Shown: piece by piece, positions 34,229-61,037 of the stretch
How the letters are laid out: the number at the start of each line of letters is the position of its first letter
Position numbering within the stretch: position 1 is the first letter of the stretch
Source: an uncultured Alphaproteobacteria bacterium
GTDB lineage: Bacteria; Pseudomonadota; Alphaproteobacteria; Caulobacterales; Caulobacteraceae
NCBI GenBank assembly: GCA_903822175.1
Contig: CAIJOB010000022.1
Coordinates: 1 to 64,000, forward strand
Direction of reading: 5' to 3'
DNA: 64,000 bases
The notes under the pieces: model-generated
What the model was told of the DNA's origin: nothing
Database searches by the model: none
What the model saw: the letters and a program-made list of their open reading frames with translations, nothing else
Program-made: the position numbers and the translations under genes

Positions 34229-34356
34229 GGGGTCGCGATTGGCCTTTTGGGACAGGTTACGCAACTGTCATGCCCGATGTCGTTGCGCCGGATCAACGGC
34301 AGGGCCAAATAACAGTGACCAGGCTCGACTATGAGCCTTTTGGGGGAGCCGACCAC

Positions 34357-35034
34357 GTGACCCGAATTCGCACTCATATTGCCCGCGCGGCGCTGCTTCT
34401 GGCCGCCGCGTTCACGCTGACGGCGTGCGGCATCAACACCATCCCGACCAAGGAAGAGGCAGCCAAGGCCAAGTGGGCGGAGGTGCAGAACCAGTATCAG
34501 CGCCGAAGCGACCTGATCCCCAATCTCGTCAACACCGTGAAGGGCTACGCGGCCCAGGAGAAGTCGACGCTGGTCGAGGTGACGGAAGCCCGCGCCTCGG
34601 CGACCCAGGTGAAGGTCGATGCGTCGACGATCACCAACCCGGCGCAGTTCCAGCAATACGCCCAGGCGCAGGACAAGCTGTCGGGCGTGCTCGGCCGGCT
34701 GATGATGATCCAGGAGAAGTACCCGGACCTGAAGTCGAACGAGAACTTCCTGGCCCTGCAGAGCCAGCTTGAGGGCACTGAGAACCGCATCGCGATCTCC
34801 AGGCGCGACTACAACGACAGCGTTCAGGACTTCAACACGACGCTGCGGACGTTCCCGCAGGTGTTCTGGGCCAAGTCGATGTACTCGAGCTCCAAGCCGA
34901 TGGTGCTGTTCTCGGCGACCGCCTCGGCCCAGTCGGCCCCGACGGTGAGCTTCGACACCACGCCGCCGCCGCCGCCCGCCGGCGTCACCCCCGGCAGCCC
35001 GCCGCCCGCGACTCCGGCTCCGGCGACGAAGTGA
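34357..35034 (+). CDS. lemA: LemA family lipoprotein
   Basis: 225 residues from the GTG at 34357, with GGGGGAG 8 bases before it. A lipoprotein signal with lipobox LTAC is followed by the LemA coiled domain: NQYQRRSDLIPNLVNTVKGYA (core RRSDLIPNLV), VTEARASATQ and SRRDYNDSVQDFNT. The C terminus is a 35-residue Pro-rich tail. LemA proteins are helical bundles at the membrane, often coded next to TPM-domain proteins, as here. Role unknown. The TGA stop overlaps a GTG of the next frame. Confidence 0.92.
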   Translation: MTRIRTHIARAALLLAAAFTLTACGINTIPTKEEAAKAKWAEVQNQYQRRSDLIPNLVNTVKGYAAQEKSTLVEVTEARASATQVKVDASTITNPAQFQQYAQAQDKLSGVLGRLMMIQEKYPDLKSNENFLALQSQLEGTENRIAISRRDYNDSVQDFNTTLRTFPQVFWAKSMYSSSKPMVLFSATASAQSAPTVSFDTTPPPPPAGVTPGSPPPATPAPATK

Positions 35035-35054
35035 TCGCGGTGGCGCCTCGGTTC

Positions 35055-35179
35055 AGTTCCTCCCCCGCTCGCGGGGGAGGTGTCGCCGAAGGTGACGGAG
35101 GGGGCGTTGGGGCCGTGCGTCGGCAGCGCCCCCTCCACCGCTTCGCGGTCCCCCTCCCCCGTTTTACGGGGCAGGAACT
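35055..35179. repeat. Composite inverted repeat, copy 3 (type B), read through in the TPM gene
   Basis: The left unit (35055-35106) is a hairpin cctcccccgctcgcgggggagg plus gtcgccgaaggtgac, ending ggagggggcg. The right unit (35124-35179) is its inverted match: cgccccctccaccgcttcgcgg, then cctcccccgttttacgggg and aggaact. It lies between lemA and the TPM signal peptide and stays open in the TPM frame. The sequence gtgcg.cggcagcgccccctccac at 35115 recurs in copy 6 at 59474 (minus strand). Confidence 0.85.
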
Positions 35180-35987
35180 GCGGCGGCTCTCCACGCTCTG
35201 CCTAGCCACGATCATCACGTTCTTCGTCCTGACGACCGTCGCCTTCGCCGCGGCGCCGAAGTTTCCGGCTCTGACGGGCCGCGTGGTTGACGACGCGCAC
35301 ATGTTGTCGCCGGCGACGACTCAGAAGCTGACCGAGGAACTCGCGGCCCTGGAGCAGCAGACCGGGCACCAGATCGTGGTGGCCACCGTGCCCGACCTGC
35401 AGGGCCATGAGATCGAGGACTACGGCTATCAGCTGGGGCGGACTTGGCTGTTGGGCCGCAAGGGCGTCAACGACGGGGCGATCCTGCTGGTGGCGCCCAG
35501 CGAACATAAGGTCCGGATCGAGGTGGGCTATGGCCTGGAGCCGGTGCTGACCGACGCCATGACGAGCGTCATCCTCAACAGCAAGGTCCTGCCGCAGTTC
35601 AAGGCCGGTCACATGGAGCAGGGCGTGGTCGACGGGGCCGAGGCCCTGATCGCCCAGGCCGGGCTGCCGGACGACCAGGCCAAGGCCAATGTCGCCCAGG
35701 CCGACGCGGCGAACGCGAGCCAGGATCGCGCGTCGACGCCGCGCGACTCGCGCCGCGGCTTCCCGATCATCGGCATCCTGTTCGTGGTCTTCTGGGTGCT
35801 GTCGATCCTGATGCGCGGACGCCGCGGCACGGGCGGCCTGTGGTGGCTGCCCTTCCTGTTCCTGGGCGGCGGGCGCGGCGGCGGCTGGGGTGGTGGCGGA
35901 GGCGGCTTCGGCGGCGGAGGTGGCGGTGGCTTCTCCGGCGGCGGCGGCGGCGGATTTGGCGGCGGCGGATCGTCGGGGAGCTGGTGA
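35115..35987 (+). CDS. TPM-domain protein with a repeat-encoded leader (YgcG-like)
   Basis: 290 residues if started at the GTG at 35115 inside the repeat; a GTG at 35031 overlapping the lemA stop is also possible, and there is no ATG/GTG/TTG nearer to the signal peptide. The leader RRQRPLHRFAVPLPRFTG precedes a hydrophobic core (LATIITFFVLTTVAFA). The TPM domain (about 45-180) has VDDAHMLSP, TGHQIVVATVPDL, NDGAILLVAP and VRIEVGYGLEPVLTD. One helix (FPIIGILFVVFWVLSILM) and a very Gly-rich tail follow. TPM proteins may act in membrane-complex repair or phosphatase-like work. The stop overlaps the next start. Confidence 0.85.
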   Translation: MRRQRPLHRFAVPLPRFTGQELRRLSTLCLATIITFFVLTTVAFAAAPKFPALTGRVVDDAHMLSPATTQKLTEELAALEQQTGHQIVVATVPDLQGHEIEDYGYQLGRTWLLGRKGVNDGAILLVAPSEHKVRIEVGYGLEPVLTDAMTSVILNSKVLPQFKAGHMEQGVVDGAEALIAQAGLPDDQAKANVAQADAANASQDRASTPRDSRRGFPIIGILFVVFWVLSILMRGRRGTGGLWWLPFLFLGGGRGGGWGGGGGGFGGGGGGGFSGGGGGGFGGGGSSGSW

Positions 35988-36688
35988 TGAAGACCCTCAG
36001 TCCTTCAGACCTCACCGCCATCGAGGCGGCCGTGCGCGCCGCCGAGGCCAAGACCACCGGCGAAATCTACTGCATCGTCACCGAGGAGAGCGCCCACTAC
36101 ACCGAGGTGGTGATCGCCTGGGCGACGGTGGTGGCCCTCTTGGGGCCGGCTCTCCTGCTGCTGGGCGGCGTGCATGTGACCATCCCTGACCTCTTCAACA
36201 GCTGGAGCGCGTCCGACGTCGGCGCGGCCATCGAGACGGCGGTGCGCCGGGCGCTGGAAGGCGCGATCGTGGTGCAGGGTCTGCTGTTCATCGTGACCGC
36301 CGCCATCGTGGCGGTCCCCGACGTGCGGCGGTTCCTGACGCCCAGAGGCCTCAAGCGCCTTCGGGTGCAGCGCCGCGCGGCCGAGCAGTTCATCGCCAAG
36401 AACCTGCACCTGACCCGCGAGCGGACCGGCGTGATGATCTTCGTCTCGCTGGGTGAGCGGATGGCCGAGCTGATCGCCGACGAGGGCATCGCCGACCACG
36501 TCGAGCCGCATGTCTGGGACAAGGCGATGGCGGCCCTGACCGCGGGCTTAAGGGACGGCAAGGTCGAGGAAGGCTTCGCCGCCTGTATCGGCCTGTGCGG
36601 CGAGGTGCTCGCCGAGAAGTTCCCGGAACACGCCGGCGACAACCCTAACGAGTTGCCTGACGCTGTGGTGGTGCTGCCCCGTCCCTGA
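35987..36688 (+). CDS. TPM-domain integral membrane protein
   Basis: 233 residues from the ATG at 35987, overlapping the TPM stop by one base (TGATG). The N-terminal part holds AIEAAVRAAEAKTTGEIYCIV with TTGEI, the same start as TPM domains; two helices (VVIAWATVVALLGPALLLLGG, VVQGLLFIVTAAIVAV) follow; and the soluble half has RAAEQFIAKNLHLTRERTGVMIFVS (core TRERTGVMIFVSL) and LIADEGIADHV. So it is a second TPM family member in the LemA operon: lemA, TPM, TPM. Function unknown. Confidence 0.85.
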   Translation: MKTLSPSDLTAIEAAVRAAEAKTTGEIYCIVTEESAHYTEVVIAWATVVALLGPALLLLGGVHVTIPDLFNSWSASDVGAAIETAVRRALEGAIVVQGLLFIVTAAIVAVPDVRRFLTPRGLKRLRVQRRAAEQFIAKNLHLTRERTGVMIFVSLGERMAELIADEGIADHVEPHVWDKAMAALTAGLRDGKVEEGFAACIGLCGEVLAEKFPEHAGDNPNELPDAVVVLPRP

Positions 36689-44200: not shown

Positions 44201-44613
44201 GGCTGTTCGTGATCGGGGCCAACCTGACCGTGCCGATCTTCTCGGTGATCCTGCGCAAGTCCTACGGCCTGGGCGCCATCGCCATGACCGGCGGCAGCTA
44301 TCAGGCGGCGATGTTCTGCGTCGCCTGGCCGACGGGCGAGTTCGGCGGCATGGGGCTGGAGGGCTCGGTGAAGCTGGGCTACCGCAACGAACTCGCCGCC
44401 ATCGCCGACCCGGCCGCCCGCAAGGCCAAGTTCGACGAGATGGTCGCCGCCGCCTACGCCAGCGGCAAGGCCATGGCGCGCGGGTCCCACCCGTCGCTGG
44501 ACGATGTCATCGACCCGGCGGACACGCGGCGGTGGATCGTGGGTGGGCTCAAGGCGCTGCCGCCCACGCCGCCACGCACGGAGAAGAAGCTGCGGTGGGT
44601 GGATAGCTGGTGA
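41245..44613 (+). CDS. Single-chain acyl-CoA carboxylase (biotin carboxylase, BCCP and carboxyltransferase fused)
   Basis: 1122 residues from a TTG with GGGGA 7 bases upstream. Biotin carboxylase (about 1-450): KLLIANRGEIAVRIA, VHPGYGFLSENAAFA, ATP-grasp KAVGGGGGRGM and EANARLQVEHTVTEE. BCCP (about 525-600) has the biotin lysine in MEAMKMEH. Carboxyltransferase (about 625-1115): GWASVNGDRFSEDRARTAV, TEGGGGRPGDTEGGG, SGRCFAGNAA and DTPGNMVGPEAE. Usual carboxylases spread these over two to four chains; the one-chain form with this order is known as the long-chain acyl-CoA carboxylase type. Acyl substrate is not known. A large palindrome follows the stop. Confidence 0.92.
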   Translation: MQKLLIANRGEIAVRIARTAAEMGIATVAVYSQDDAASLHTRKADEAYALQGSGPAAYLDIKGVVAAAKATGCDAVHPGYGFLSENAAFARACAKAGLTFVGPTPETLELFGDKGRARALAQRCEIPVLPGTDGPTTLSEAKAFFDGPGKGAVMIKAVGGGGGRGMRPVTDAAELEAAFERCASEAKASFGNGDLYVERFMPHARHIEVQIVGDGKIVSHLWDRECSLQRQRQKVVEMAPADMLPLALREALFAAAVRLGEAAGYRSLGTVEFLVPAPALEDSGFVFIEANARLQVEHTVTEEVTGLDLVRIQLQIAAGASLIDLGLRQVDVARPRGHAVQVRVNLETMAADGSAKPAGGLLTTFEPPSGPGIRVDGFGYAGYRTSTRFDSLLAKLIVHSGTGGVSQAVAKAYRALSEFRIEGSASNIGFLQTLLALPAVTKGDVHTRFIEQHMGELGHAPDAHRKLYFDTVPRAAAPSATPQRVGYQVDAVDPLAILALGKQEAAVSTEDLEPDAPEGTQALRAPLQGTVIAIAVAEGDAVRASQPLMIMEAMKMEHVIAAQVSGIMRQITVAVGETVFEDHPLAFLEEAEIEAGEGGEEEAVDLDFIRPDLAEVLDRQAMARDAARPDAVARRRKTKQRTARENVEDLVDPGSFLEYGPLVVAARRRRHSLDELVKTTPADGMIMGWASVNGDRFSEDRARTAVLSYDYTVLAGTQGANNHWKLDRMSELIHRWRTPTVFFTEGGGGRPGDTEGGGFTRGFEFWGKLSGTVPLVGINSGRCFAGNAAILGCCDVIIATKDSALGMGGPAMVEGGGLGVFRPEEIGPIKVMQANGTIDVLVEDEAEAVQAAKKYLAYFQGPVADWTCTDQRLLRRAIPENRLRVYDIRKVIELIADEGSVLELRPKFGLAMVTAFIRVEGKPMGVFANNPMHIGGAIDSDASDKAARFLQLCEAFDIPVLSLSDTPGNMVGPEAEKTGLIRHCSRLFVIGANLTVPIFSVILRKSYGLGAIAMTGGSYQAAMFCVAWPTGEFGGMGLEGSVKLGYRNELAAIADPAARKAKFDEMVAAAYASGKAMARGSHPSLDDVIDPADTRRWIVGGLKALPPTPPRTEKKLRWVDSW

Positions 44614-44625
44614 GGGTCAAAATCA

Positions 44626-44765
44626 TCCCTCCTCTTTAGGGGAGGGTGGGCGAGGCGAAGCCGAGGTCGGGTGGGGAAGTGTGGGCCGGCGTGCTGAGTC
44701 AGCGCTTGAACCAGACTTCCCCACCCGTCTCGCTGCGCTCGCCACCCTCCCCTAAAGAGGAGGGA
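44626..44765. repeat. Large palindrome between convergent genes, copy 4 of the repeat family (type D)
   Basis: The outer arms tccctcctctttaggggagg (from 44626) and cctcccctaaagaggaggga (to 44765) pair perfectly for 24 bp, including the next gtgg/ccac. Inside, each arm goes on with a hairpin-rich part (gcgaggcgaagccgaggtcgggtggggaagt, and acttccccacccgtctcgctgcgctcgc), of which gtggggaagt pairs with acttccccac. The centre is 34 bases. It sits 13 bases past one stop and 7 bases from the other, so it can serve as a two-way terminator. Confidence 0.88.
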
Positions 44766-44771
44766 TGAGCG

Positions 44772-46130
44772 TCAGTGCGCGGAGTAGGTCCGCAGCACGT
44801 CTTCGACGATCCGCTCCAGTTGCCCCAGCGTGTTGCAGGTCTTGGCCACGTGGGTGAAGCGCTGGTAGCGGTACATGACGCTGTCGCCCTGGCCCCAGTA
44901 GCTCTCAGGCTCCGGGTTCAGCCAGATGACCGCCCGGGCGCGCTGCTGGATCAGGTGCATGATGTCCAGGCGCGGGTCGGCGAAGTTGGAGCGGCCGTCG
45001 CCCAGGAAGATCACCGTGGTGTGGCGGTCGATGCGGTCCATGTGGTTCTCGGCGAAATCCTCCAGCGCCTTGCCGTAGTCGGTCTGCTGGAAGCCGATGG
45101 TCTGCAGCACCTTGAGGATCGCCTTCTCGACGCCGTTGTCGTCGAGGATGGCGTTGACCGGGATCAGCCGGCCCGAGAAGGCGTAGGCGTCCAGCCGGTC
45201 GACCACCTCGTTCAGCGAATAGAGGAAGGTCAGCAGGAACTGGGCGGCGGCGGCCACCGATTTCGAGACGTCGCAGATGGCGACGATCGAGGGTTTGTCG
45301 ACCTTCTTGATCTTCCACTCGATCTCGAAGGAGACGCCGCCGTGGGCCATGGATTTGCGCAGCGTCTTGCGCACGTCCAGGTGGCCGCGGTTGGCGGTGT
45401 GGCGGCGGCGCGAGTAGCGGTCGGCCAGCCGCTTGGCCATGCGTTTGACCAGGGCCTGCATCATCACCAGGTCGACCGGGTCGATGCCGCCGTCGGCGTT
45501 CAGCGCCTTCTTGGCCAGCATCTCTTCGCGCAGCTTCGCGCCGGAGCCGGCGGCGTAGAGCTCGTGCTGGCGCTCCACATAGGCCTGGGCCTGGGCGGTC
45601 AGCGCCGTCTTCCCCGCCTCCAGCCGCACCGCCAGGCGGGCGCCTGCGTGGGTCTGCAGCCGGCGCGCGTTGGCGATGATGCGCTCGATCTCGGCCAGGC
45701 CCATCTCGTCCAGCAGCTTGCGGGTCAGCCGGCTGCGCTGGGTCGAGAGGCGGATCTCGGCGACGCCGGCGGCGCGGGCGGCCTCTTCCATGGCCTGCGC
45801 CATGCCGGCCGCGTCGCCGGCCAGCAGCATCTGGGCCAACGGTGATTGATCCGCGCCCGTCGCGTCGCCGCCTTCCTGCGGTTCGCTGTCCTCTGGCGGC
45901 GGCGGCAGGGCGAAGCTGTTGCGGGTGAAGAAGGTTTCGAAGGTCTCGTCGAACCGGCCGACCTCCTCGCGGGATTTGGCGAGCGTGGCGCAGAGCGCGT
46001 CCTTGAACAGCTCGCGGTCGGCATAGCCCACGGCCGCCGCCGTACGCGCCGCGTCAATCGCCTCGGCCGGCGAGACCTTGACGTCGGCGGCGCGCAGCGC
46101 GCGGAGGAACTCTTCGAGGGTGTGCTGCAC
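44772..46130 (-). CDS. CoxE-like von Willebrand factor A domain protein
   Basis: 452 residues. The C-terminal half holds a VWA fold with the metal site AICDVSKSVAAAAQ (DxSxS) and FLGDGRSNFADPRLD, both as in CoxE. The N-terminal half is helical, with LDEMGLAEIERIIANAR and an acidic low-complexity patch (PPPEDSEPQEGGD). It is coded 23 bases after a MoxR ATPase. In CO dehydrogenase systems the CoxD/CoxE pair takes part in building the Mo-Cu site. Here the pair is convergent with, and near, an iorAB molybdoenzyme. Confidence 0.88.
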   Translation of the reverse strand: MQHTLEEFLRALRAADVKVSPAEAIDAARTAAAVGYADRELFKDALCATLAKSREEVGRFDETFETFFTRNSFALPPPPEDSEPQEGGDATGADQSPLAQMLLAGDAAGMAQAMEEAARAAGVAEIRLSTQRSRLTRKLLDEMGLAEIERIIANARRLQTHAGARLAVRLEAGKTALTAQAQAYVERQHELYAAGSGAKLREEMLAKKALNADGGIDPVDLVMMQALVKRMAKRLADRYSRRRHTANRGHLDVRKTLRKSMAHGGVSFEIEWKIKKVDKPSIVAICDVSKSVAAAAQFLLTFLYSLNEVVDRLDAYAFSGRLIPVNAILDDNGVEKAILKVLQTIGFQQTDYGKALEDFAENHMDRIDRHTTVIFLGDGRSNFADPRLDIMHLIQQRARAVIWLNPEPESYWGQGDSVMYRYQRFTHVAKTCNTLGQLERIVEDVLRTYSAH

Positions 46131-55362: not shown

Positions 55363-57891
55363 ATGAAGTCCTTCTCGCGTCGGTTCCTGATCAGCGTCGG
55401 CTTGATGTCGCTGATCATGACGGTGCTCGGCACCTTCGGCGCATTCGTTGTGTTCGAGCGCGAGCTCTCGAACCGCCAGATCGGCTACCTCACGGACTAC
55501 GTCCGGGAGCGCAGCTCCAATGTGGATCGCCAGTTCTCCAACCTTTCCACCGTTCACAAGGCCGCCGGCGAGGAGCTGGAGCGGCGGATGAACCACCTGA
55601 CCGACGCCGAGGTGGCGAAGCTGGCGGACGAGTATTTCCCGCTGCAAGCGGACGGCACGCGCCGCAGCCGCGACAAGTATTTCGACGGCGTGGTCGGCCA
55701 GGGCGACTACACCTATGGCCTGGGCGCCTTCATCGCGCAGGCTAAGGCCGCGACGCCTGACGAGATGCGCGCGCTGGTGGCCTCGTTCCGGCTGGCGTCG
55801 GATTTTGGCCAGGCCATGCGCCGCGACTACGACAACTTCTACTTCTTCACGGCCACGCCCACGCGGCTGGTGATGTACGGCCCCGACCGGCCCGACCACC
55901 TGATGTTCTACCGCCACGAGGCGCCGGCCGACCTGTCGATCTCCGGCGAGGAGATGGCCAAGGTCACGCTTCCGCAATTCGACCCCAGCCGCGCGACCCG
56001 CTGCACCAACCTGCAGCGGCTGGTGCAGGATACGGTCGGCAAGCGCCTGGCCACGGCCTGCCTGACGCCGGCCTATGTCAACGGCCGCTATATCGGCGCC
56101 TTCGGCTCATCGATGGAGCTGACGCACTTCTTCCTGAACGCGGTGAAGAACACGCCGTCCGGCGCCTCGCCGATGATCGTGACCTCGAAGGGCGAGCTGA
56201 TCGCCTATCCGGGCTTCACCGACCAGGGCGCCACGCCGGAAAAGACGCTGGCCGACTACCAGAAGAAGTTTGCGCTCACTGACCTCGCCACCCGCATCGG
56301 CAAAGACAAGCGCGAGAACGGCGTGATCGAGAGCCCGGACGGCCGCCAGATCGTCGCCTTCGGACGGCTGAATGGCCCCAACTGGTACCTGCTGCTGACC
56401 TATCCCAAGGCCAATGTGATGGCCTCGGCGCTGAAATCCGCCTCCTGGGTGCTGCTGATCGGCGGCATCGCGTCCGCCATCCAGGCGCTGGCTGTCGTGC
56501 TGCTGGCGCGGCGCAGCATCGTGCGCCCGGTCGAGCGGCTGGCAGCCTCCTGCGAAGGCGGCGACAACGAGCGCCCCGACGTCAGCGACGTGGAGCTGCG
56601 CAACGACGAGATCGGCGTCTTGGCGACCTCGCTGCGCACCGAACGCGAAAAGACCGTCGCGGTGCTGGCCTCGCTGGAGGACCGCGTCAGCGAACGCACC
56701 GCCCAGCTGGAGCGCGCCAATACCGAGAAATCGCGCTTCCTGGCCAATATGAGCCACGAGCTGCGCACGCCGCTGAACGGCGTCATCGCGATCTCCGAGA
56801 CCCTGGCCGGCCAGGAAACCACGCCCAAGGGCAAGGAGCTGGCTGAGCTGATCGTCGCCTCCGGGCGCCTGCTCGAGCGGGTGCTGACCGACATCCTGGA
56901 CTTCTCGAAGATCGAGGCCGGCGAGATCACGCTGGGCAGCGACGACTTCGCCATGACCCGGCTGGTCAGCCACGTGGCCGAGCTGCACAAGGCGTCGGCC
57001 GAGGCCAAGGGCCTGAACTTCCGCTGGTCGATCGCCCCGGAGGCCGAGGGCCACTACGCGGGCGACACGGTGCGGATCACCCAGGTGCTCTCGAACCTGC
57101 TCTCCAACGCGGTGAAGTTCACCGAGGCCGGCGAGGTCGTGCTGGACGTCATCGCCTTTGGCGACGAGATCCGCTTCCAGGTTTCCGACAGCGGCATCGG
57201 CTTCGACGAGGAGACCGGCCAGCGCCTGTTCCGCCGCTTCGAACAGGCCGACGCCTCGATCCGCCGCCGGTTCGGCGGCACGGGCCTTGGCCTCGCCATC
57301 AGCCGCTCGCTGATCGAGCTGATGGGCGGGCGCATCGTGGTGCAGTCGCGCCCGGGCCACGGCTCGACCTTCTCGGTCTATGTGCCTCTAGAGCGGCTCG
57401 AGGACGTCGCCATCGACGAGGGGCAGAACGAGGCCCCGGTGTTCGATATCGCCGGCGCCCGGGTGCTGGTGGCCGAGGACCATCCGACCAACCAGAAGGT
57501 CGTCGAGCTCATCCTGGACTCGGTGGGCGTCACCCCGGTGATCGTCGAGAACGGCCAGCTGGCCATCGACCTGCTGCGTCAGGAGCGCTTCGACGTTGTC
57601 CTGATGGACATGCAGATGCCGGAGCTGGACGGCCTCACCGCCACCGCGCTCCTGCGCCAGTTCGAGCGTGAAACCGGCCTGCCGCGCACGCCGGTGATCA
57701 TGCTTACCGCCAATGCGCTCGACGAGCATATGCGCGCCAGCCATGAGGCCGGCGCCGACCTGCACCTCTCCAAGCCGATCCACGCCCAGGCGCTGATCGA
57801 GAGCATCATGAACGCCATCAGCGGCCGCGCGGACGAGGCCACCGACGAGGCGGCCCCGGAGCAGGACGGCGAAGAGACCGCCGTCGCCTAG
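55363..57891 (+). CDS. Hybrid histidine kinase (Cache-type sensor, HisKA, HATPase, receiver)
   Basis: 842 residues. TM1 (about 8-30), a large periplasmic Cache-like domain (about 35-355) with WYLLLTYPKANVMA before TM2 (about 362-385), a short HAMP-like and coiled part, HisKA with ANMSHELRTPLNGVIAI (phospho-His near 465), HATPase with LSNLLSNAVKFTEAG, VSDSGIGFD and GGTGLGLAIS, then a receiver with VLVAEDHPTNQKV, VLMDMQMPELDG (phospho-Asp), MLTANA and LSKPI. Phosphate probably goes on to a separate HPt protein not coded here. Its TAG and that of the convergent PHP gene share CTAG at 57888-57891. Confidence 0.93.
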   Translation: MKSFSRRFLISVGLMSLIMTVLGTFGAFVVFERELSNRQIGYLTDYVRERSSNVDRQFSNLSTVHKAAGEELERRMNHLTDAEVAKLADEYFPLQADGTRRSRDKYFDGVVGQGDYTYGLGAFIAQAKAATPDEMRALVASFRLASDFGQAMRRDYDNFYFFTATPTRLVMYGPDRPDHLMFYRHEAPADLSISGEEMAKVTLPQFDPSRATRCTNLQRLVQDTVGKRLATACLTPAYVNGRYIGAFGSSMELTHFFLNAVKNTPSGASPMIVTSKGELIAYPGFTDQGATPEKTLADYQKKFALTDLATRIGKDKRENGVIESPDGRQIVAFGRLNGPNWYLLLTYPKANVMASALKSASWVLLIGGIASAIQALAVVLLARRSIVRPVERLAASCEGGDNERPDVSDVELRNDEIGVLATSLRTEREKTVAVLASLEDRVSERTAQLERANTEKSRFLANMSHELRTPLNGVIAISETLAGQETTPKGKELAELIVASGRLLERVLTDILDFSKIEAGEITLGSDDFAMTRLVSHVAELHKASAEAKGLNFRWSIAPEAEGHYAGDTVRITQVLSNLLSNAVKFTEAGEVVLDVIAFGDEIRFQVSDSGIGFDEETGQRLFRRFEQADASIRRRFGGTGLGLAISRSLIELMGGRIVVQSRPGHGSTFSVYVPLERLEDVAIDEGQNEAPVFDIAGARVLVAEDHPTNQKVVELILDSVGVTPVIVENGQLAIDLLRQERFDVVLMDMQMPELDGLTATALLRQFERETGLPRTPVIMLTANALDEHMRASHEAGADLHLSKPIHAQALIESIMNAISGRADEATDEAAPEQDGEETAVA

Positions 57892-59474
57892 CGGGCGTTG
57901 AGATAGATCGGGTTGCCGATCAGCCAGAGCTTGCCGTCCGGTCCGCGCACGTCGATGCGCAGCCAGTGGCGTTGGCCATCGCCTGACACCTCTAAGGTCT
58001 TGGTCTCGTCGTCGGTCTTGAACGTGGCGTCGGCGAGCTTCGGCTTTGGCCCGTCGCCCGCCAGTGACAGCGAAGCGCCGGCGACGTGGGTCGCATGCAC
58101 CGAGATCCGAATGGGCGCACCGGCGGGCGGCGCGAGCGCGTCGCCCATTTCCACGGTCTTGCCGCCGGATGTGGCTGTGACCTCCAACGTGCGGTCGCGG
58201 CTGGCGTTGACGTCGATGAACACATGGCCCGCGCGGATGGCGGCCAGGATCGCCGGCTGCGACAGCTCCGTGGCGTGGACGACGGTCGTGGGATAGCCGA
58301 CGCCGGCGGCGGCCACGCGGCTGATCTCGATATCGTGGCTGTCGGAACCACCGACGGCGGTGATGCGGAAGCCGGTGTTCAGCCGCGCCTCCCAGAACGG
58401 AATGCCGGAGATGATGCTCTCGCCGCCGCCGGGCAGGCGTAACGCCCCGCCGTTGACCACCTCGATCGCCTGGATGCGCGAGAAGTCGGTGTCCTTTACC
58501 GTCCAGCCGCAACCGGTGCAGGTCTCGCCCGACGGTTGGCCCGGGTGGTTGATGGAGATCAGCCCGCCGGCCTTTTCCACCTGGCTCTGGATGGCGGCCA
58601 GCGTCGGGGCGCGCGGCGAGCCGAGCTGGAAATCCATCGGCGCGGTCGGACCCCAGATGTTGGCGTGACCCCAGAAGGTGGTCAGCTCACGGCCCGGGAT
58701 CAGCAGCAGGTCGTCATAGTAGGGGGCGAGCTCGCGCAGGGCCTCGTTCTGGGCGGTGGCGTTGTGGTCGGTGACCGAGATGAAGTCGAGGCCCCGGGCG
58801 TGCGCCGCCTCCAGCGTCTTGAAGACCGGGCAGGGGACGCGGACCTTGCGCATCGACTGGCACGTCCCGTCGGAGTTGGCGGTGTGCATGTGCAGGTCGC
58901 CGCGGTACCAGCCGGGACCGGGCTTGATCGGGACGGCGCTGAAGCCGGCGAAGCTCGTCCCGTGCTCGAAGGTCACGCGGGCGGTGTAATGCGCCTCGAC
59001 GCCGGCCCGTAGGTTCGGCACGCCCAGCACCAGCTTCCAGGTCCCGGCGGGAATCGGGCCCGGCAGATAGGAGGGCGTGGCGTCGGCGTCGCTGATCGTG
59101 AAGCTCTGCTTGTTGCCGCCACTCCAGCCGCGGAAGCGCTCAGGATCGCGAACGCCCAGATCGATCACCGACTTCTGGTCCTTGCCGGTGTAGGCGAACT
59201 CGACGGTCAACCGCGTCGTGCCCGCCGGCACCTTGAAGGGGACCTCGCGGTAATGATCCTGGTCGGCGTGGGTCGTGACGCCGGTGAGCGTCAAGTCCTG
59301 CGCATGGGCGGATGTTGCAAACAGGGCGGCGATCAGTGCGGCCGCAGCGCCCCCTCCACCACTTCGTGGTCCGCCTCCCCCGCTGAAGCGGGGGAGGAAC
59401 TTGATCGATTCAGTTCCTCCCCCGTGAAACGGGGGAGGGGGACCCGAAGGGTGGAGGGGGCGCTGCCGCCGCAC
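57888..59474 (-). CDS. CehA/McbA-type PHP metallohydrolase with a repeat-encoded leader
   Basis: 528 residues from a GTG at 59474, the only ATG/GTG/TTG start open to the frame. Residues 1-45 (MRRQRPLHPSGPPPP onward) are coded by the repeat at 59344-59466; a signal-peptide core follows (AAALIAALFATSAHAQ). After a beta domain, the PHP part shows metal ligands YRGDLHMHTANSDG, DFISVTDHNA, GRELTTFWGHANIWG and ISINHPGQP. CehA-like enzymes hydrolyse carbamates, esters or phosphoesters; substrate unknown. The upstream thiolase stop is 5 bases before the GTG, so translation may be coupled. Confidence 0.85.
   Translation of the reverse strand: MRRQRPLHPSGPPPPFHGGGTESIKFLPRFSGGGGPRSGGGGAAAALIAALFATSAHAQDLTLTGVTTHADQDHYREVPFKVPAGTTRLTVEFAYTGKDQKSVIDLGVRDPERFRGWSGGNKQSFTISDADATPSYLPGPIPAGTWKLVLGVPNLRAGVEAHYTARVTFEHGTSFAGFSAVPIKPGPGWYRGDLHMHTANSDGTCQSMRKVRVPCPVFKTLEAAHARGLDFISVTDHNATAQNEALRELAPYYDDLLLIPGRELTTFWGHANIWGPTAPMDFQLGSPRAPTLAAIQSQVEKAGGLISINHPGQPSGETCTGCGWTVKDTDFSRIQAIEVVNGGALRLPGGGESIISGIPFWEARLNTGFRITAVGGSDSHDIEISRVAAAGVGYPTTVVHATELSQPAILAAIRAGHVFIDVNASRDRTLEVTATSGGKTVEMGDALAPPAGAPIRISVHATHVAGASLSLAGDGPKPKLADATFKTDDETKTLEVSGDGQRHWLRIDVRGPDGKLWLIGNPIYLNAR
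59344..59466. repeat. Composite inverted repeat, copy 6 (type B), inside the PHP gene leader
   Basis: Left unit 59344-59400 (gcagcgccccctccaccact, then cctcccccgctgaagcgggggagg and aac). Right unit 59413-59466 is its inverted match (gttcctcccccgtgaaacgg, then gggtggagggggcgctgc). The centre is 12 bases. On the minus strand it reads as an open frame giving RRQRPLHPSGPPPPFHGGG. The outer end gcagcgccccctccac matches copy 3 at 35124 onward. Confidence 0.9.
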
Positions 59475-59479
59475 CGCGG

Positions 59480-60622
59480 TCAGGGCGCCTCGTTTGAGAA
59501 CACGATGGTCCCCGAGGCGGCGAACATGCCGCCGACGCCGTGGGCGATGCTGATCTTGGCGTTCGGCACCTGGGCGGGCGCAATGCCGCGCATCTGCCGC
59601 ACGCTCTCCTGCAGGGCGTACATGCCGTACATGCCGGAGTGCATGTAGGAGAGGCCGCCGCCGTTGGTGTTCAGCGGCAGCTTGCCTCCGATCGCGGTAT
59701 TGCGGTCGCGCACGAAGCCCGCCGCCTCGCCCGGCTTACAGAAGCCCAGATCCTCCAGGCCGTAGAGCGGCAGGTGGGCGAAGGCGTCGTAGATCATCAG
59801 GTGGTCGACGTCGGCGTGGCTGATGCCGGCCTCGGTGAAGGCCTTCTTGCCCGAGACGCGGAAGGCGCGGCTGGAGGTGAAGTCCTCCATCTGGCTGACC
59901 ATCGGAGTCTCGACGCTCTCGCCGGTGCCGAGCACATAGACCGGCTTTTGCGGGAAATCCTTGGCCCGCTCGGCGCTGGTCAGGATCAGCGCCCCGCCGC
60001 CGTCGGTAACCAGGCAGCACATCAGCTTGGTGAAGGGCCAGGCGATCATGTCGGACTTCAAGACGTCCTCGACGGTGATCGGATCCTTGTAGCTGGCGCG
60101 CGGATTGAGGGCCGCCCACTCGCGCTGGATCACCGCCACCTGGGCCAGGTCCTCGACCGTGTAGCCGCGTGCCTTCAGATAGCGGAGCACCGGGATCGTA
60201 AACATGGTCGGCGGACCCATCGGGCCGTAGGGCATCTCGAACTGGCCCATCAGGCTGGAGGCGGAGCGGGCAAAGCCGCCGGCGCCGACCCGGGAGCGGC
60301 CGCTCTCGCCGTGGGTGATCAGGACGGTGTTGCAGAGCCCCTCGTTGATCGCCGCCGCCGCATGGCGCACGTGCAGCATGAAGGAGCAGCCGCCGACGCT
60401 GGTGCCGTCCGCATAGGTCGGCACGATCCCCATGTAGTGGGCGAGCTCGACCGGGGAGATGCCGGCGCAGGCGACGCCGTCGATATCCGAGGGCTTGAGG
60501 CCGCAGTCGGCCATGGCGTTCAGCGCCGCGTCGGCGTGCAGGCCGATCACCGAGACGTCCGGAATCTTGCCCATCTGGGTGGTTTCAGCGGCCCCGACGA
60601 CCGCGATGGATTTCGGTTTCAT
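59480..60622 (-). CDS. Thiolase-like (SCP2-type) protein
   Basis: 380 residues from the ATG at 60622. The N-terminal block IAVVGAAETTQMGKIPD and GVACAGISP, GGCSFMLHVRHAAAAINEG, and the C-terminal NTNGGGLSYMHSGMYGMYAL with AHGVGGMFAASG are the SCP2-thiolase/acetyl-CoA acetyltransferase pattern. The usual N-terminal catalytic Cys appears replaced (GGCSFM holds a Cys in about the right place), while His parts (NGGGLS, HGVGG) are kept. It is coded with a DUF35 OB-fold protein, and such pairs are known to form complexes working on acyl-CoA, for example in sterol side-chain retro-aldol cleavage. Confidence 0.87.
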   Translation of the reverse strand: MKPKSIAVVGAAETTQMGKIPDVSVIGLHADAALNAMADCGLKPSDIDGVACAGISPVELAHYMGIVPTYADGTSVGGCSFMLHVRHAAAAINEGLCNTVLITHGESGRSRVGAGGFARSASSLMGQFEMPYGPMGPPTMFTIPVLRYLKARGYTVEDLAQVAVIQREWAALNPRASYKDPITVEDVLKSDMIAWPFTKLMCCLVTDGGGALILTSAERAKDFPQKPVYVLGTGESVETPMVSQMEDFTSSRAFRVSGKKAFTEAGISHADVDHLMIYDAFAHLPLYGLEDLGFCKPGEAAGFVRDRNTAIGGKLPLNTNGGGLSYMHSGMYGMYALQESVRQMRGIAPAQVPNAKISIAHGVGGMFAASGTIVFSNEAP

Positions 60623-60626
60623 GGGC

Positions 60627-61037
60627 CTACGCTCCCGCCGGCTGGAAGAAGGGTAGGGAAATGTCATCGCTCTGCTTGGAGAAGGTGACCTTCACCGGCA
60701 TGTCGAGCTGGAGCGCTTCGGGCGTCTGCGGGCAATCCACGATGTTGGTCATCATCTGCGGGCCCTCGGCGAGCTTCACCACCGCGATGGCGTAGGGTTC
60801 GGTCCCCATGTCGGGGCGCGGGCGCATGTTGATGACGTAGGACCAGAGCACGCCCTGGCCGCTGGCCTTGTAGCTCTCGACCTTGCGGCTGCCGCACTTG
60901 GGGCAGAAGGGCCGGGGCGGGAAATAGCTTCCGCCGTCGCAGTCGGTGCAGCGCTGCAGGCGCAGTTCGCCCGCCTTGCAACCCTCCCAGAAATGCCGGG
61001 TCTCCGGCGTGGGCTCAGGCAACATCCGTGGTGGCAT
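60627..61037 (-). CDS. DUF35 Zn-ribbon/OB-fold protein
   Basis: 136 residues from the ATG at 61037. The zinc ribbon is seen as LQRCTDCDGGSYFPPRPFCPKCGSRK, with CTDC and CPKCG pairs, followed by an OB-fold with LWSYVINMRP and YAIAVVKLAEGP. The family binds acyl-CoA and partners with thiolase-like proteins or hydratases. Its stop is 4 bases ahead of the thiolase ATG. Together they are a typical DUF35-SCP2 thiolase unit. Confidence 0.9.
   Translation of the reverse strand: MPPRMLPEPTPETRHFWEGCKAGELRLQRCTDCDGGSYFPPRPFCPKCGSRKVESYKASGQGVLWSYVINMRPRPDMGTEPYAIAVVKLAEGPQMMTNIVDCPQTPEALQLDMPVKVTFSKQSDDISLPFFQPAGA

Follow-up and report, generated by a model that had tools for sequence, protein, structure and literature searches.

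Which codon starts the TPM-domain gene behind lemA, and did the palindromic repeat between the two genes supply it? In the window, the stretch of 64,000 nucleotides analysed here, from a soil-dwelling Phenylobacterium, lemA (LemA family, PF04011, E 2.8e-55 on 34354-35031) occupies 34357..35034 of the forward strand with a presumed start codon, and it ends with the TGA at 35032-35034. The gene for an exported TPM-domain protein (PF04536, E 1.5e-40) follows on the same strand. Based on its open reading frame and the start position of its orthologues it extends over 35031..35987, which would give 318 amino acids if translation begins at the GTG at the lemA stop. An earlier note on this DNA had instead proposed that the repeat gave start codons both to this gene and to an unrelated exported protein at 59474.

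The repeat and the TPM reading frame

The composite inverted repeat described in the earlier note lies between lemA and the core of the TPM signal peptide, at 35053..35181 (forward strand; delimited by own-genome matches, nhmmer limits and folding). Its outer arms, 35054-35067 and 35167-35180, are 93% complementary, and the single-strand fold of 35050-35185 has an energy of -92.9 kcal/mol, compared with -67.2 kcal/mol (sd 4.0) for shuffled sequences (z -6.4). The hydrophobic core and cleavage region of the TPM signal peptide follow at 35199..35252 (forward strand; taken from the translation, limits set by eye). Reading the TPM frame bore out that no ATG, GTG or TTG occurs after the repeat until the hydrophobic core is reached. 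The open frame runs from 35031 and offers the GTG at 35031..35033, which overlaps the lemA stop as GTGA, and the repeat-borne GTG at 35115..35117, both on the forward strand. The n-region before the core would have 56 residues when read from the former and 28 when read from the latter.

Coding potential was evaluated with a codon model trained on 24 open reading frames of the window. In both the TPM gene and the 59-kb gene coding is clear just after the repeat, and the repeat parts themselves score as non-coding, as any foreign insert would. Stop-free frames are not enriched in the repeat (130 of 198, with 139.9 expected from shuffles), which rules out selection of the repeat for open frames; without such an excess, openness alone says little in G+C-rich DNA. 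The repeat seems to be read as protein at the starts of both genes. A known structured RNA was considered as an identity for the repeat and rejected, the single Rfam match (E 0.5) reaching 19.5 bits where the gathering score is 88.

A dispersed repeat family

A query of 221 bases around the lemA-TPM copy gave at least 57 matches in the 4.02-Mb genome to which the window belongs (G000), with the query itself and both strands counted and 40 of 113 candidates scored. From 35 fetched stretches and the window, at least 33 clusters with 37 units were recovered; the stretches L100, L102, L104, L107 and L108 held no unit at E 1e-3 and are outside these clusters. The repeat is thus a dispersed family, as the earlier note supposed. 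The consensus of the unit, taken by eye, is GTGCGGC.GCAGCGCCCCCTCCACCACTTCGTGGTCCCCCTCCCCCG...CGGGGGAGGaacT. GTG is the commonest triplet at the unit start (23 of 37 units), so the GTGs at 35115 and 59474 are parts of the unit. The window copies measure 129 nt (lemA-TPM) and 143 nt (59-kb gene), and single units of 65-76 nt account for many of the other copies.

Placement of the clusters was judged by the same codon model. Most are intergenic (29 of 33); two lie in frame within enzymes and two in the leaders of the window genes. By setting, 19 clusters are found between genes of the same direction, among them the two window leaders, eight between convergent and three between divergent genes, two inside genes and one at a contig edge. 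Copies are faced by 35 gene 3' ends, 23 of which lie within 30 nt of the copy, and by 26 gene 5' ends. For the latter, ATG, GTG or TTG was sought from the copy to 60 nt into the coding segment, and by this rule 25 of the 26 genes have such a codon after the copy; the TPM gene alone has none. The 59-kb gene is one of the 25, but the codon found there is a TTG located past the signal peptide. This count rules out that copies create starts as a general rule, and the repeats are not usual start donors.

The TPM start in related genomes

A TPM orthologue was matched in 97 of 101 genomes of the genus. We examined 42 loci, including that of the window and the identical pair L010/L011, and located the lemA stop in 40 of them. 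In 38 of these 40, the window included, an in-frame start that is open to the core lies between -20 and +12 nt from the lemA stop, whereas the same rule applied to the other two frames found 2/40 and 0/40. The exact overlap of the lemA stop by ATGA or GTGA (position -1) occurs at 27 of the 40 loci, and the window retains its own, the GTGA at 35031. Only L016 and L020 lack an in-frame TPM start near the lemA stop. In G008, whose lemA stop was missed by the script, GTG-IAVAP precedes the TPM core, as in the window.

Elements in the TPM leader were detected in three other lineages, G040/G013, G075 and G033 (L020). G040 and G013 are identical over 1.2 kb at this locus and have kept the GTGA at the lemA stop. 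The leader of G075 contains the repeat with no GTG at the position of 35115, and has a GTG just after the lemA stop. G033 has no start by the lemA-stop rule and carries an ATG inside the leader. Altogether the palindrome families were found at E 1e-3 in 5 of 42 TPM leaders; one of these belongs to the window and served as a query source, and two others are identical. By eye L016 and L040 also resemble the repeat, but they score above E 1e-3 and are uncounted. The G000 and G040 leaders are both in frame: a 12-nt gap precedes the repeat, a 15-nt gap falls within it, and the gaps of 3, 8 and 5 nt near the core sum to a multiple of three. Among the 101 genus genomes, no empty TPM site was found near enough to fix the ends of the insertion or a target-site duplication such as a MITE would leave: the repeat is present in G040 and G013, the closest relatives (80% protein identity), and G041, at 79%, is the closest in which no element was detected.

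Because the start site is common to 38 of the 40 loci and is retained in the window, the TPM gene most likely kept its own start, and the repeat was most likely inserted in frame, within the n-region of its signal peptide. On this comparison of sequences the TPM repeat is best seen as having lengthened an existing gene rather than started one, and the preferred start at 35031 does not bear out the claim of a repeat-donated TPM start. An n-region of 56 residues would be long, so additional use of the GTG at 35115 is possible.

Several TPM leaders without a detected repeat (L012, L014, L015, L041 and L043) have a small hairpin, in L014 for instance CTCCATCGCGGAG, whose translation is an RGGG-like n-region. 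The hairpin could be native or left over from a palindrome. Immediately downstream of TPM in the window, a gene at 35987-36688 has a weak TPM-domain match (E 3.5e-7), so that two TPM-type genes follow lemA.

A probable repeat-borne start in the 59-kb gene

The earlier note was right that the same DNA opens an unrelated exported protein at 59474. This is a CehA/McbA family metallohydrolase (NF038032, E 1.5e-78) at 57888..59474 on the reverse strand, and its open reading frame begins MRRQRPLHP... with the repeat-borne GTG. A head-to-head pair of the lemA-TPM unit at 59334..59476, identified by its arms, nhmmer limits and fold (z -13.7 against shuffles), encodes the start, the n-region and the first alanines of the hydrophobic core. 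The core itself (AAAALIAALFATSAHA) lies at 59301..59348 on the reverse strand, with limits taken by eye from the translation. Upstream on the same strand, a thiolase-like gene (59480..60667; PF22691, E 1.1e-57) ends five bases before the GTG. The GTG at 59474 is the first ATG, GTG or TTG after the in-frame stop, and none follows before the signal core.

In G013, the orthologue behind the matching thiolase gene also opens with GTGCGGCGGCAGCGCCCCC, and its repeat contains additional GTG and TTG codons. Compensating single-base gaps separate the leaders of G000 and G013, whose middle peptides are therefore different. Another palindrome family is found in the 59-kb leader of G041, G026 and G089. 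In G026 and G089 an ATG within the element (ATGAGGGG) shares the frame of the core, and other starts lie inside element and core; in G041, the in-frame ATGs sit midway through the composite. The element of G083 is placed further upstream and is followed by ATGs. Within 300 nt, 6 of 30 59-kb leaders have an element at E 1e-3, our own query source included, and 24 have none. We also observed that the 59-kb gene is matched in G013 and unmatched in G040, despite the 1.2-kb identity of these genomes at the TPM locus.

Copies inside enzymes

Two copies in G000 lie in frame inside enzymes. One is located between the glutamine amidotransferase and synthetase domains of asparagine synthase, the other between the lipoyl and E3-binding domains of the pyruvate dehydrogenase E2 component. 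The asparagine synthase linker is enlarged in 11 of 25 loci. Of the 24 that were aligned, our own included, ten have linkers of 33-60 residues and 14 of 19-21 residues; the eleventh long linker belongs to L202 (G013), which was outside the alignment by the motif rule and was read separately. At the position of the motif SGG[IV]DS, matched by all 24 aligned loci, L202 has SSGIDS. Palindrome families were detected (nhmmer, E 1e-3) in 8 of the 25 asparagine synthase loci, five of these being query sources, and an element in 3 of 25 E2 loci, one at E 8e-4 and one a query source; L245 was outside the E2 alignment. No palindrome match was obtained in control stretches taken from within the TPM and 59-kb genes (0/72).

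The inserts of other species are repeats in their own genomes as well. Scoring 40 candidates in each genome gave at least 39 matches in G030 for its asparagine synthase insert and at least 88 in G031 for that of G031, the insert itself and both strands counted; the latter insert also has at least 81 matches in G009, 59 in G019 and 85 in G011. The E2 insert of G030 has at least 52 matches in G030, counted in the same way. Three palindrome families all occur in G000, with at least 57, 13 and 52 matches (one query each, both strands counted).

At the asparagine synthase locus the sisters G031 and G002 differ in their inserts, and G036, in a clade of insert carriers, has none. Labels for three palindrome families, assigned by eye to ten rows of the tree, do not cluster on it beyond shuffles. 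The tree fits repeated insertion and exchange in place alike and does not tell between them. It is possible, though we put it forward tentatively, that several unrelated Phenylobacterium palindrome families keep inserting in frame at a few permissive sites, are swapped between species, and have repeatedly supplied the 59-kb gene with a start codon and a basic n-region. The sites would be the asparagine synthase linker, the E2 linker and the n-regions of the two exported proteins, and the starts would be GTG CGG CGG from one family (G000/G013) and the in-element ATG AGG GGN from another (G026, G089). Should this hold, hairpin DNA would be a portable source of gene starts and linkers.

Origin of the leaders

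We consider it probable that a REP-like palindrome was inserted in frame behind the native start of the TPM gene, and that an inverted pair replaced the 5' end of the 59-kb gene, where its GTG became the start. A non-autonomous REP-like Phenylobacterium palindrome would have entered the TPM 5' end just behind the start at the lemA stop and stayed in frame. It would be translated as a long, arginine-rich n-region, and cleavage of the signal peptide would take this leader off. For the 59-kb gene, the inverted unit pair would have taken over the original 5' end, and the repeat GTG would now start the gene 5 nt behind the upstream gene's stop codon. Insertions would survive where extra residues are harmless, as in signal-peptide n-regions and interdomain linkers. 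Translation, leader removal, neutrality and the act of insertion are what we infer here, and the start codon would be owed to the repeat in no more than one of the two genes.

The proposal that the repeat donated the start in both genes, with TPM translation beginning at the GTG 35115 and its basic n-region numbering 28 residues, appears unlikely. Such a start is in frame, after GGAGGGGG, and the n-region would be closer to ordinary signal-peptide length. For the 59-kb gene this part of the earlier proposal stands, the repeat GTG at 59474 being the sole ordinary candidate before the core, but for TPM it conflicts with the native start that the window shares with nearly all other loci and with the G075 repeat, in which the corresponding GTG is absent. 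Moreover, the GTG at 35115 comes with the unit, so no selection is required to explain it. One might also regard the repeat as merely an intergenic hairpin, with the TPM start after it at a non-standard codon, for instance the CTG in GAACTGCGG, and an accidentally open frame. The intergenic location of most clusters agrees with this, as does a caution in print: N-terminal REPs are noted in PMC3733652 but often set aside as probable misannotation, and many may, according to that account, be extragenic with translation starting downstream. We nevertheless judge it to be quite improbable. The TPM gene has no ordinary downstream start, whereas 25 of 26 facing genes do (in the 59-kb case a TTG that lies past the signal peptide); the start at the lemA stop is shared among loci and in frame; and the in-frame copies in two enzymes suggest that the family can be translated.

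It is very hard to believe that an assembly or consensus error made the open frame or deleted a start codon. Hairpin-rich and G+C-rich repeats are prone to error, and the assembly consists of 42 contigs. The same arrangements are, however, present in separate assemblies, the TPM leader in G040/G013 and G075 and the 59-kb gene in G013, and asparagine synthase inserts also occur in G024 and G011, assemblies of two contigs each.

Relation to known palindromic repeats

A close parallel in function is with the Rickettsia palindromic elements (RPE; Ogata et al. 2000), described as palindromes of 100-150 bp in several families that occur in frame within unrelated Rickettsia genes and are read as protein (PMC10969869, PMC2229807). 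As far as these descriptions go, the Phenylobacterium palindromes resemble them in lying in frame in unrelated alphaproteobacterial protein genes. Both window copies fall in the size range, with terminal arms and strong folds, and in-frame gene copies are seen in two of 33 clusters inside enzymes and in the two leaders. The likeness is one of description; the host is a G+C-rich genus of the Caulobacteraceae and, unlike RPE, most copies are intergenic.

The REPs of the GTAG and CGTC types are reported as short palindromes, often inverted dimers, near gene 3' ends, and intragenic REPs, some of them translated, are reported in alphaproteobacteria and others; at recB, in one case, different REPs occupy about the same gene site (PMC3733652). 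In the terms of that account our family is similar, with short palindromes, inverted pairs, gene 3' ends close by and some copies inside genes. Of the terminal tags in print, which also include CCTC and TGTC variants, GTAG is present in 0/37 unit cores, and CGTC or its complement, counted wherever in the core, occurs in 10/37. A resident RAYT as mobiliser of the repeat is unsupported, as no Y1 transposase (Y1_Tnp, PF01797) was found in G000 (96.5% complete); PF01797 was found in 4 of 30 genomes searched. According to print, CGTC REPs have no dedicated RAYT. Compared with the REPs described there, the two N-terminal Phenylobacterium cases stand out by having no ordinary start between copy and signal core. 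The terms Phenylobacterium, Caulobacterales, Caulobacter, asparagine and signal peptide are absent from the main text of PMC3733652.

The enterobacterial repeats RU-1/ERIC, RU-2 and RU-3 are described as small mobile repeats fused to reading frames (PMC2759123), and the joining of a small repeat to reading frames is common to both systems. They belong to an unrelated host group and are compared by description, and for the Phenylobacterium copies start sites were compared across relatives. Within the same bacterial family, the Caulobacter CIR (Chen and Shapiro 2003) is likewise a hairpin repeat, described as about 110 bp with two hairpin arms, GANTC and a purely intergenic location (PMC2229807, PMC10969869). 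Compared with that description, GANTC is present in 4 of 33 Phenylobacterium clusters, and copies lie inside the asparagine synthase and E2 genes.

A search of the literature by titles and abstract openings found no paper on Phenylobacterium palindromic repeats. We regard the kind as known, working like the RPE and intragenic REPs in print, and the Phenylobacterium case as a new example of it. As two of its genes have no ordinary start between repeat and core, translation of such leaders is directly decidable. The asparagine synthase linker, with several families at one site across species, offers a natural test of repeated insertion versus exchange in place.

The window also contains a copy of the second palindrome family, that of the G031 asparagine synthase linker, at 44624-44768. 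It is flanked by an open reading frame ending at 44613, which appears carboxylase-like from its sequence, and by a convergent open reading frame ending at 44772.
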